Positions 33,297 through 38,949 of a stretch of 64,000 nucleotides of DNA are shown here, one piece after another. Below the pieces are notes generated by a model, which worked only from the letters and a program-made list of their open reading frames with translations, was not told where the DNA came from and made no database searches. Source of the stretch: Candidatus Bathyarchaeia archaeon (GTDB lineage Archaea > Thermoproteota > Bathyarchaeia > Bathyarchaeales > Bathycorpusculaceae); the NCBI GenBank assembly GCA_041447175.1, contig CP166960.1, positions 124,001 to 188,000 on the forward strand, in the 5' to 3' direction. The position numbers and the translations under genes were made by a program. The first letter of the stretch is position 1. Each line of letters starts with the position of its first letter.

Positions 33297-33977
33297 ATGA
33301 GACTCGGGGTGCTGTTTTCAGGCGGCAAGGACTCCACGCTTGCCTTGCATAAAGCCGCGGAAAAAGAAGAAGTAGCCTGCTTAATCACGCTGCGGTCAAA
33401 GAACCCAGAAAGTTACATGTTTCACACCCCCAACATTGACATAACTACGCTTCAAGCGCAAGCCCTTAAACTGCCTCTGCTGGTGAAGGAAACTGAGGGC
33501 AAAAAAGAAGCCGAACTAGATGACTTAGAAAAAGCGCTCGTGGAAGCGGCGAAACGATTCCAAATTGAAGGCATAGTCACGGGCGCCGTGGAATCCGTCT
33601 ACCAAGCTGAACGCGTCCAACGCATCTGTAGCCGCCTTGACCTTTGGTGTTTTAACCCGCTGTGGAAGAAGAACCAAAAAGACCTGCTGGAAGAGCTGCT
33701 GCAGCGGCGGTTCTGCACGGTCATCTCGGGCGTTTTTGCTTACCCGCTGGATGAGACGTGGCTGGGCAAAGAAATAGACGCCCAAATCATTGAGCGGTTG
33801 GTGCGTTTGCAGCAGGAGTATGGCATCAGCCCATCAGGGGAGGGCGGCGAAATAGAAACCACCGTGCTGGATGCGCCCTTGTTTAGGTGGAAAATCAAAA
33901 TCGAAAACAGCACCTTCAAAGCGCGGGGCAACGCGGGCGTGTACCGTATACAACAGGCGAGGTTAGTGCCCAAATGA
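33297..33977 (+). CDS. Dph6-like ATP-binding protein (diphthine-ammonia ligase family)
   Basis: A 226-residue PP-loop ATPase with SGGKDS at 8-13, MFHTPNIDITTLQAQAL, GIVTGAVESVYQAERV and the C-terminal GEGGEIETTVLDAPLF signature of the ATP_bind_4 family. Yeast Dph6 makes the last step of diphthamide on EF-2 using ammonia; archaeal members are thought to do the same. An EF-2 gene is 2 kb downstream, but that EF-2 lacks the histidine to modify. It overlaps the amidotransferase gene by four bases (ATGA), and that partner could feed it ammonia. Confidence 0.85.
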   Translation: MRLGVLFSGGKDSTLALHKAAEKEEVACLITLRSKNPESYMFHTPNIDITTLQAQALKLPLLVKETEGKKEAELDDLEKALVEAAKRFQIEGIVTGAVESVYQAERVQRICSRLDLWCFNPLWKKNQKDLLEELLQRRFCTVISGVFAYPLDETWLGKEIDAQIIERLVRLQQEYGISPSGEGGEIETTVLDAPLFRWKIKIENSTFKARGNAGVYRIQQARLVPK

Positions 33978-34534
33978 TTCTGGTTGTGGACATGAATCAG
34001 AAGAAGGATTCACTGGGCTACTGCGAGTTCGTATTACCCATTTTGGAAATCGTTAAACATCAGGAACAATACAGGGTTAAGCACTATGCAGAGGTAACCG
34101 AGGAAGACCTAAACAGCTGTAGCAAAGTCATCCTCTCAGGCACGCCACTAAAAGATAACACCGCCGTGGGACACGCAGAAGAAAGGTTTGTGTGGCTAAG
34201 AACAGTGAACAAACCTGTTTTAGGTATCTGCGCGGGCATGCAAGCCATGGGTGCAGTGTTTGGTTTGTTGTTAACGCGGTGTCTGGAAATTGGCATGACA
34301 CCCATGAGGACGCTTACCGCTAACCCTCTTTTCTCAGGTAAGTTCAGGGCTTATTCACTGCACAACTTTTGTGTTGAATCCTCCGACGAATTTGAGGTCC
34401 TAGCCGAATCGGAAAAATGTGTACAAGCCCTCAAGCATAAACAGAAACCTATCTACGGGGTCTTGTTCCATCCCGAAGTGAGAAACCCCGAAATCCTCAT
34501 GCGGTTTCTCAGCTTAAAGACGATGGACTGCTAG
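33974..34534 (+). CDS. Class I glutamine amidotransferase
   Basis: A 186-residue stand-alone GATase1 domain. The nucleophile is Cys86 in LGICAGMQ, and the other triad residues are His166 and Glu168 in LFHPEV. The start ATG at 33974 overlaps the Dph6-like gene (ATGA). It resembles the amidotransferase subunit of archaeal GMP synthase, but in those species the synthetase subunit is a separate gene not seen here. Its pairing with an ammonia-dependent ligase suggests that it supplies NH3 to that enzyme. That coupling is an inference from the overlap. Confidence 0.78.
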   Translation: MILVVDMNQKKDSLGYCEFVLPILEIVKHQEQYRVKHYAEVTEEDLNSCSKVILSGTPLKDNTAVGHAEERFVWLRTVNKPVLGICAGMQAMGAVFGLLLTRCLEIGMTPMRTLTANPLFSGKFRAYSLHNFCVESSDEFEVLAESEKCVQALKHKQKPIYGVLFHPEVRNPEILMRFLSLKTMDC

Positions 34535-35878: not shown

Positions 35879-35944
35879 GCTTGCTGCTGGGAGTCACAAA
35901 TTTAATAGGGCAACGATACATCTGAAATGCTGTTTGTGTACCAA

Positions 35945-38086
35945 ATGCCAAGGTTTAAGCAGCTAAACGAAATTCAGCAGCTCATGAGCCAAAAAGGGCA
36001 AATCCGCAATTTAGGCATAGTGGCACATATTGACCATGGAAAAACGACTCTGGCGGATGCACTTCTGGCTGGCGTGGGGTTGCTTTCGCCGCAGATGGCG
36101 GGTTCTGCACGAGTTTTAGACTACTTAGCTGAGGAACAGCGGCGGAAAATCACCATAAAAACCGCCAACATCAGCCTCCTCATCAAGCGCCAAAACACAC
36201 CTTACTTGATTAACTTGGTGGACACGCCTGGACATGTGGATTTCACGGGCAAAGTCACAAGGGCACTCCGAGCCATTGACGGCGTGGTTGTGTTGGTTGA
36301 TGCGGTAGAAGAGATTATGGCCCAGACGGAAATCGTGACGCGGCAAGCACTTGCAGAGCGGGTACAGCCAGTGCTTTTCATCAACAAAGTAGACCGCTTA
36401 ATCACCGAAATGCAGCTGAGCGCGGAACAAATTGAACAGAAACTTTACCACATCATAGGCGGCTTTAACGACCTTATCGAGCTTTATGGCGAAAAACCCT
36501 TCAGCAACCAATGGAAAGTTAACCCCGCAAAAGGCAGCGTTGCGTTCGGCTCGGCTCTGCATGGGTGGGGCTTCACGTTGGGCATTGCCAAGGGTAAAGG
36601 GGCCAAATTCAACGACGTTATTGCTGCCTACAAAAACGCCTCGCAACAGCAGCTAAGTAAAACATTGCCCGTTTATAACGCAATCTTTGAAATGGCAGTC
36701 AGCAGTCTTCCTGACCCGAAAACCGCGCAGGCTTACCGTGTGGAGAAAATCTGGAGTGGCATGCAAAAGTCTGACGCGGGAGCAGCCATCGCTGGTTGTG
36801 ATGACGAAGAAATGGCGGTTATGTGTGTGACACAGGTGGAACCTGACTTAACAGGGGGCAGCATCGTCACGGGCAGGCTGTTTTCGGGCACAATCAGGGA
36901 AGGGGATACGCTGCACTGCGTTAATGCCCTGCGGGAAACGGTTGTCAAAAAAGTCTATGTTTACATGGGCTCCTTTAAGGAAGTTGTGAGTCAAGTTTCT
37001 GCGGGGAACATTGCGGTTTTGGCGGTTTCTGAAGTTCTGCGGGCAGGCGAAACCCTCGTGGACGTAGCGCACAAGGTAGGCATGGTGCCGTTTGAGGGCA
37101 TAAACTATGTTTCGGAGCCTGTGGTGACGGTTGCGGTGGAGCCTAAAGACCCCAAAGACATCTTTGACGTGCTTAAAGCGTTGCATAAGCTTGTCACTGA
37201 AGACCCAAACCTTGCAGTGAACGTTGACAAAGAAACAGGCGAATACCTGCTCAGTGTTATGGGGGAGCTGCATTTGGAGGTCGCATTAAACCAGCTCAAG
37301 GTTCTGAGCGGAGGATTGGAGGTTTCGGTTTCTGCACCCCGAATCGTGTACCGCGAAACAGCAACAAAGAAAGGGGCGGCTGCATCTGCTCTGAGCCCAA
37401 ACAGGCAAAACAGGTTCACGGTGCAGGTGGAGCCTCAAGAGCAAGGGCAGCCAGAGCAGATTCAAGTATATGAGCAGGGCAGTGTGCTTTCGATTGATGA
37501 GTACAGAAATGTCCTAGTGAACTGCAACTTGGAGAAGGAGCCTGAAATTCAGGAAGTCTTAGAAGCCATCATTAGCGGCTTTGAGTTTGCCTGCAATGCA
37601 GGTCCCTTATGCGCTGAACCCATGCGGCATGTGAAGGTGAACCTGCTGGATGTGCAGCTTAGCGTGGATAAAGAGCAACAAAGCCCCACAGAGGTCATGC
37701 ATGGCGTGGGAAAAGCCATCTTTGGCGCCTTTTTAAGCGCTCAACCTGTGCTGCTGGAACCAGTGTACAAAACAGTCATAACCGTCCCTACCGAGCTGGC
37801 AGGGGAATGCTCCCGAATCGTGGAAACTCGACGCGGAAAAATCTCCGCCTTCGAACAAAAAGGGCAACTAACAGTCATCACAGGGCACATCCCCGTTTCA
37901 GAAACGTTTGGGTTATCCAAAGAGTTACGGTCGGCAACCTCAGGAAGGGCGTTTTGGCAAAACATGCTGGAAAGCTGGTTGGAGGTGCCCAAAAAGGTGG
38001 CGCCAAAAGTAATCACGGCGGTAAGGCAGCGGAAGGGGTTGGCTTTGCAGGTTCCCGACGCGGAGAGGTTTTTGGAGGAGCATTAA
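35945..38086 (+). CDS. Elongation factor 2 paralogue without diphthamide histidine
   Basis: A 713-residue EF-2-like translational GTPase. G1 is AHIDHGKTT, G3 DTPGHVDF, G4 NKVD; switch I reads RRKITIKTAN where standard aEF-2 has RGITIKAAN. Domains II to V are all present (VTVAVEPKDPKD, GELHLEVALNQLK, SAPRIVYRET, SPNRQNRF, PVSETFGLSKELR, RQRKG). In domain IV the loop that holds the diphthamide histidine aligns as VDKEQQSPTEV instead of DPAHRGPAQ, so Gln578 replaces the modified His. It may be a second EF-2, as in some other archaea, or the only one. Start at ATG 35945 (MPRFKQLNEI, the usual start). The next gene overlaps its stop as TAATG. Confidence 0.9.
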   Translation: MPRFKQLNEIQQLMSQKGQIRNLGIVAHIDHGKTTLADALLAGVGLLSPQMAGSARVLDYLAEEQRRKITIKTANISLLIKRQNTPYLINLVDTPGHVDFTGKVTRALRAIDGVVVLVDAVEEIMAQTEIVTRQALAERVQPVLFINKVDRLITEMQLSAEQIEQKLYHIIGGFNDLIELYGEKPFSNQWKVNPAKGSVAFGSALHGWGFTLGIAKGKGAKFNDVIAAYKNASQQQLSKTLPVYNAIFEMAVSSLPDPKTAQAYRVEKIWSGMQKSDAGAAIAGCDDEEMAVMCVTQVEPDLTGGSIVTGRLFSGTIREGDTLHCVNALRETVVKKVYVYMGSFKEVVSQVSAGNIAVLAVSEVLRAGETLVDVAHKVGMVPFEGINYVSEPVVTVAVEPKDPKDIFDVLKALHKLVTEDPNLAVNVDKETGEYLLSVMGELHLEVALNQLKVLSGGLEVSVSAPRIVYRETATKKGAAASALSPNRQNRFTVQVEPQEQGQPEQIQVYEQGSVLSIDEYRNVLVNCNLEKEPEIQEVLEAIISGFEFACNAGPLCAEPMRHVKVNLLDVQLSVDKEQQSPTEVMHGVGKAIFGAFLSAQPVLLEPVYKTVITVPTELAGECSRIVETRRGKISAFEQKGQLTVITGHIPVSETFGLSKELRSATSGRAFWQNMLESWLEVPKKVAPKVITAVRQRKGLALQVPDAERFLEEH

Positions 38087-38949
38087 TGGGGCTTTGCGAG
38101 TTGCCGTTTTGGCTGGACGTGACGTTGTGTTGTGGGCAGGTTTTCCGCTGGGACAAACTGGGGGACTGGTGGTACGGCGTCGCTGGTGAACATGTTTTTA
38201 AGGTTCGGCAGATCAACGGCAAATTCGAGTACGTAAACGTTGACGAAGCGTTTGTGGAGCACTATTTCGGGTTGGATGATGACCTGCAGAAAATCGCCGA
38301 CAGCATAAACAAAGACCCTCACATAGCCATGGCGCTTAAGGCGTATTGGGGTCTACGGTGCATAAGGCAGAACCCATGGGAATGCCTCATCTCCTACATC
38401 TGCGCCACCTACAAAAGCATACCCGCCATTAAACACATGCTCAACAACATAGCCGAAAAATTCGGCGAAAAAACCGTGCTGGATGATAAAACGTTCTACA
38501 CGTTTCCAACATGCGAAAAACTCGCCGCCGCTTCAGAGCAGGATTTGAAGGCTTGCGGATTAGGTTACCGGGCGAAGTACGCGCTTGCAACAGCACAGCG
38601 AGTTCACAAAGGCACATTTGACCTCCAAGCAGTAAAGAAGTTGCCTTACGTGGAGGCAAAGAAGGCTTTGATGGAGCTTCCGGGCGTGGGTGCAAAAGTG
38701 GCGGACTGCGTCTTGTTTTTTTCGCTGGACAAAACCGAGGCGTTTCCGGTGGATGTCTGGGTGAAGCGGGTCATACTGAACCATTATGGTGACAAGTTGG
38801 AGCCAGTGGTTTTCCAGCGGCTGTCCCGCGGTGATTCGTTGAGCAGTGGCGATTATGAGCGGCTCTGCAGTTTTGGCAGAAGCTACTTTGGGAAATACGC
38901 AGGGTACGCACAGGAGTACCTGTACCATTTTGAACGCATGGCAATTTAA
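38086..38949 (+). CDS. ogg: 8-oxoguanine DNA glycosylase, OGG1 type
   Basis: A 287-residue HhH-GPD glycosylase/lyase. The front has the OGG1-specific VTLCCGQVFRW segment; further on are the RNPWECLISYICATYKS-like stretch (RQNPWE...), the helix-hairpin-helix LPGVGAKVADC with catalytic Lys204, and FPVDVWVKR with the activating Asp223. It cuts 8-oxoguanine from DNA and nicks the strand. The ATG at 38086 shares one base with the EF-2 stop (TAATG). The plus frame is open far upstream inside the EF-2 gene, but that part is not part of the family. Confidence 0.92.
   Translation: MGLCELPFWLDVTLCCGQVFRWDKLGDWWYGVAGEHVFKVRQINGKFEYVNVDEAFVEHYFGLDDDLQKIADSINKDPHIAMALKAYWGLRCIRQNPWECLISYICATYKSIPAIKHMLNNIAEKFGEKTVLDDKTFYTFPTCEKLAAASEQDLKACGLGYRAKYALATAQRVHKGTFDLQAVKKLPYVEAKKALMELPGVGAKVADCVLFFSLDKTEAFPVDVWVKRVILNHYGDKLEPVVFQRLSRGDSLSSGDYERLCSFGRSYFGKYAGYAQEYLYHFERMAI

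Follow-up and report, generated by a model that had tools for sequence, protein, structure and literature searches.

A loop-less original EF-2 apparently displaced by a divergent second EF-2 in an order of Bathyarchaeia

Why does an archaeal genome with genes of the diphthamide pathway carry an EF-2 gene whose product has no diphthamide histidine, and which of its two EF-2 copies is the original one? These questions are raised by one gene in the window, a stretch of 64,000 nucleotides within a single 2.73 Mb contig of the genome of a Bathyarchaeia archaeon, whose order comprises archaea of soils and guts. The features of the window used herein are as follows.

33297 to 33977, forward strand: Dph6 (diphthine--ammonia ligase; TIGR03679 276 bits, cut-off 197).
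35945 to 38086, forward strand: EF-2-type GTPase without the diphthamide loop (class A), 713 aa.
36140 to 36157, forward strand: switch I, RRKITI, with K where canonical EF-2 has G/Q, from the alignment.
37334 to 37753, forward strand: domain IV, shortened to 140 aa (163 in canonical EF-2), measured between conserved anchor motifs.
37661 to 37693, forward strand: what is left of the tip loop of domain IV, SVDKEQQSPTE, with the Gln codon of the diphthamide site at 37676-37678.
38083 to 38949, forward strand: OGG-type DNA glycosylase gene directly downstream of EF-2, used as the synteny anchor.

The window gene encodes a complete protein of the EF-2 family. The reading frame is intact, giving 719 aa from an upstream ATG at 35927 and 713 aa from the ATG at 35945, which is the start used by its relatives. 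Pfam matches to domains G, II, III, IV and V follow the full EF-G/EF-2 order, and domains I-III share 56-59% identity with canonical EF-2 of the same order. AlphaFold predicts an EF-2 of five domains (pLDDT 84, pTM 0.73) with low confidence in switch I, and the best PDB matches of this model in the structure comparison were all archaeal EF-2. By sequence, the best archaeal EF-2 in the PDB scored 607 bits and the Efl1 chain 5anb 245 bits, and identification of the window protein as Efl1 by homology was thus rejected. However, with the archaeal EF-2 equivalog model TIGR00490 the window protein scored 668.4 bits, below the curated cut-off of 738.45, and the Pfam EFG_IV match starts only at position 59 of the 121 in the profile. 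The earlier note, made from the window sequence, had stated that all EF-2 domains other than the diphthamide loop were kept; this holds for the domain order and the GTPase motifs but not for domain IV, which is shortened and in which most universal positions are no longer kept.

To place these differences, 141 distinct EF-2 proteins from relatives of the window genome were aligned and divided into three classes: class C, canonical EF-2 with the His loop; class B, a long-branch clade also bearing the His loop; and class A, the window type, in which the diphthamide loop is lost. The diphthamide His of the Sulfolobus EF-2 chain 8hl1 aligns without gaps to the first Gln of DKEQQSPTE, that is, to residue 578 when numbering starts with the ATG at 35945 (codon at 37676), as the earlier note had proposed. 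The diphthamide column is His in all 53 class C and all 37 class B proteins and in none of the 51 class A proteins, where it is occupied by Q (20), by a gap (16) or by L, F, N, E, A, D or C, and the tip loop as a whole is hypervariable or deleted. The loop state is common to more than 35 species, and a sequencing error or frameshift as its cause was thus excluded. The second deviation that had been noted, K for G in switch I, was also borne out, with K in 31 of 37 close relatives and G or Q in all class C and B proteins. Domain IV of class A is about 23 residues shorter than the canonical domain. Of the 152 columns universal in classes C and B, the main clade of class A (37 rows) no longer keeps 16 of the 25 that lie in domain IV versus 5 of the 127 elsewhere (p=2e-11), including 1 of 73 in the G domain; the P-loop, DTPGHVD and NKxD are retained in all class A proteins, apart from single small variants. 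Judged from this alignment, the whole domain-IV tip is eroded in class A, and the variable or deleted residue at the diphthamide site argues that Gln is not a conserved replacement; on the same ground, Gln as a general functional substitute for His was rejected. Separately, frames of about 1060-1330 aa, in which the EF-2 match begins just past the P-loop, were observed in eight genomes of the class Bathyarchaeia (G064, G030, G035, G040, G076, G082, G091 and G109), and point to probable inteins in EF-2.

The prediction of two EF-2 proteins and of diphthamide machinery in this genome proved right. The second EF-2 (L001, class B; G000:C1:1687343-1689556) has 738 aa, carries the loop EDPVHRGPAQ with its His and scores 838 bits with TIGR00490, above the cut-off. 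Dph2 and Dph5 are both present above their family cut-offs, each was found in 59 of the 61 genomes scanned, and the Dph6-like gene seen near EF-2 is a Dph6 by the family score given above. Directly after dph6, and overlapping it, comes a class-I glutamine amidotransferase gene (the pair spans 33297-34534 of the window) with the catalytic motifs GICAGMQ and LFHPE kept, and the same pair stands beside EF-2 in L061, L062, L065, L068, L181 and L182. This recurrence suggests that the amidotransferase may feed ammonia to Dph6; a class-II fusion has been proposed for ammonia supply to Dph6 in other archaea (PMC3541065).

The origin of the two copies was examined using an EF-2 tree built without the domain-IV columns, together with synteny. 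Class A is nested inside the canonical Bathyarchaeia EF-2 of the order at 100/99, and class B forms a separate clade outside A plus C at 100/100. The loop may have been lost once or several times, a single class A clade not being rejected (AU p 0.28). Classes C and A occupy the same locus, directly upstream of the OGG-type glycosylase gene (29 loci), and were never found together in one genome among the genomes of the order examined. The nesting and the shared locus show that the window gene is the original, vertically inherited EF-2 of the order at its ancestral place rather than an added copy, and that the His-bearing class B is the newcomer, a divergent second lineage. The earlier note had taken the window gene for a paralogue added beside a standard copy; tree and synteny overturn this, and rule out a recent paralogue of the standard copy. 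Class B was found in this order only. It is placed on a long branch as sister to other Thermoproteota classes (that clade 99/97, the partner group 96/85), and no close relative was found among 167 genomes of those classes in a 200-genome sample of the phylum, each of which had at most one EF-2 match, at about 50% identity or less to class B, with two having none at that threshold. Class B might have arisen by transfer or by ancient duplication, between which the branch support is not enough to choose. In L183, L057 and L067 the class B gene and the C or A gene are arranged head to head, and in L169-L172 and L215-L217 class B has a core-translation neighbourhood, which consists of uS19 and ArgRS in one family and of HisRS and glutamine synthetase in a second. 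Marker phylogenies based on EF-2 can confuse the two copies in this order.

The genomes of the order present a series of states: C only in 16, A and B in 27, B only in 6, A only in 9 and a fragmentary state in 1, while C and B were observed together in 3 genomes (G141, G143 and G148) and in L057. Loop loss goes with the presence of B: A outnumbers C 27 to 3 where B is present and is outnumbered 9 to 16 where it is absent (p=4e-5, with counts uncorrected for kinship). Four genomes are true cases of the B-only state. The glycosylase gene adjoins the gene upstream in G084, G133 and G136, where EF-2 has been cleanly deleted, and in G137 these two genes are separated by a frameshifted N-terminal remnant (L203:392-603, G137:C35), which is the original EF-2 caught as a pseudogene. 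For G138 and G139, the other two B-only genomes, no glycosylase gene was found, and the original locus is unreadable there.

These losses might suggest that class A, once displaced, became a decaying relic without any function, and the weaker constraint on A than on B and C points in the same direction. Per-domain dN/dS is mostly 0.05-0.15 in class A pairs, with a maximum of 0.43 for the two closest sequences, and class B pairs give 0.02-0.13 and class C pairs mostly 0.02-0.06; over the whole protein it is 0.08-0.13 for A and 0.05-0.06 for B. For the same two species, A is 74% identical and B 95%, and A is thus the faster-evolving copy, a point against the reading proposed below. However, a whole-protein dN/dS of about 0.1, intact frames in some 50 divergent copies, and GTPase motifs that are invariant while a single universal G-domain column is lost are hardly those of a decaying gene. 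Class A appears to be under looser yet clearly purifying selection, and we consider a relic improbable.

Herein, we propose that a displaced EF-2 has survived with another task on the ribosome. First, the His-bearing class B would have taken over translocation and would be the substrate of the diphthamide pathway. Second, the original EF-2, freed of translocation, would have shed its diphthamide His together with the loop and some of domain IV. In translocation, it is the diphthamide-bearing tip of domain IV that reaches into the decoding centre, and the G domain, along with domains II, III and V, binds to the large subunit at its GTPase centre. The part lost from class A would thus be the part that reaches the decoding centre, and the parts retained would be the GTPase core and the domains that dock on the large subunit. 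Third, from this pattern we infer that class A is most likely a ribosome-dependent GTPase that does not translocate. We assign this reading, that B took over translocation and the loop-less original survives as a non-translocating ribosome GTPase, a probability of about 0.6.

Despite the loss of the tip, class A might still translocate without diphthamide or a normal loop, serving certain mRNAs or states of growth, or acting as the chief factor of some lineages, since its GTPase motifs and domains II, III and V are largely retained and the body of domain IV remains under purifying selection. Genomes with A only bear directly on this point. In G072, the syntenic place of B holds a broken C-terminal remnant (L235:2207-2469, G072:C58), no other B copy was found in that genome, and A may be its sole EF-2; B was not found in G135 and G145 either. 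However, Dph2/Dph5 dN/dS is 0.115/0.110 in G072/G145 against 0.120/0.108 in the genus of the window, and this equal constraint argues that a His-bearing EF-2 still exists there. In genus g14, the A-only state looks like an assembly artefact, because uS19 and ArgRS, universal genes that neighbour B, are also missing or the contig ends there; a loop-less protein as sole EF-2 was ruled out for this genus. Moreover, the part of class A that is lost or hypervariable, down to deletion of the loop, is the part needed at the decoding centre. We therefore regard continued translocation by class A as unlikely, and it seems less likely still that in some lineages, e.g. the Bathycorpusculum-like G072, the loop-less EF-2 performs all translocation without the diphthamide His while the dph genes persist.

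For the displaced, non-translocating EF-2 that we favour, the most plausible concrete job would be a task on the large subunit, such as the release of aIF6, as an archaeal counterpart of Efl1. Sulfolobus EF-2 made in E. coli, and so without diphthamide, releases aIF6 from the 50S subunit by ribosome-dependent GTP hydrolysis, and Efl1 is absent from archaea (PMC8024482). Two points count against the proposal: canonical EF-2 releases aIF6 with no dedicated copy, and the B-only genomes do without A. Taken alone, an Efl1-like role on the 50S subunit is a tentative assignment. A role in ribosome hibernation or 50S storage might also be considered, as canonical aEF2 together with PurH makes inactive 50S dimers in Methanosarcina acetivorans (PMC13324472) and the window protein has one of its best matches, by sequence and by fold, in the EF-2 chain of the 50S dimer entry 9ou7. 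However, 9ou7 matches no better than other archaeal EF-2 chains, and the Methanosarcina activity uses an ordinary EF-2, so that this role seems rather improbable for class A.

Since EF-2 is, to our knowledge, essential and near-universally single copy in archaea, the series of genomes with the original alone, with both copies and with the newcomer alone amounts to a rare natural experiment in the replacement of a core translation factor. It would separate translocation, for which the diphthamide loop and the dph genes are kept, from the other duties of EF-2, and the natural tip-less proteins provide material to test these other functions, e.g. aIF6 release.

Compared with known systems, class A shares five domains, all GTPase motifs and the ancestral locus with canonical archaeal EF-2 (TIGR00490) but has no diphthamide His, a short domain IV and a score below the equivalog cut-off. 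Bacterial EF-G2-type paralogues are likewise second translocase-like GTPases with a divided or changed role; they are EF-G rather than EF-2, and were compared with class A by family scores alone. Eukaryotic Efl1, the GTPase that releases eIF6, is like class A an EF-2-derived GTPase beside a standard EF-2 (PMC8024482), but the origin of class A is independent and its Efl1-like function is only predicted. The closest parallel is found in the loop-less or diphthamide-less EF-2 paralogues of archaea lacking dph, in Asgard and others, as Narrowe et al. 2018 are summarised in PMC10307638. In that summary, as in the window genome, a second EF-2 beside a canonical copy misses residues required for diphthamide. 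A separate origin of class A is expected from our tree, in which Asgard sequences were not among the taxa. No paper describing a displaced loop-less EF-2 in Bathyarchaeia was found in a literature search that covered few subscription journals. The paralogues so summarised accompany the loss of dph, whereas Dph2, Dph5 and Dph6 are intact and constrained in the present case, and the loop-less copy here is nested in Bathyarchaeia. Thus, relative to the known loop-less paralogues, what appears to be new is an intact dph set together with a loop-less copy that is the vertically inherited gene and was probably displaced by the divergent class B.
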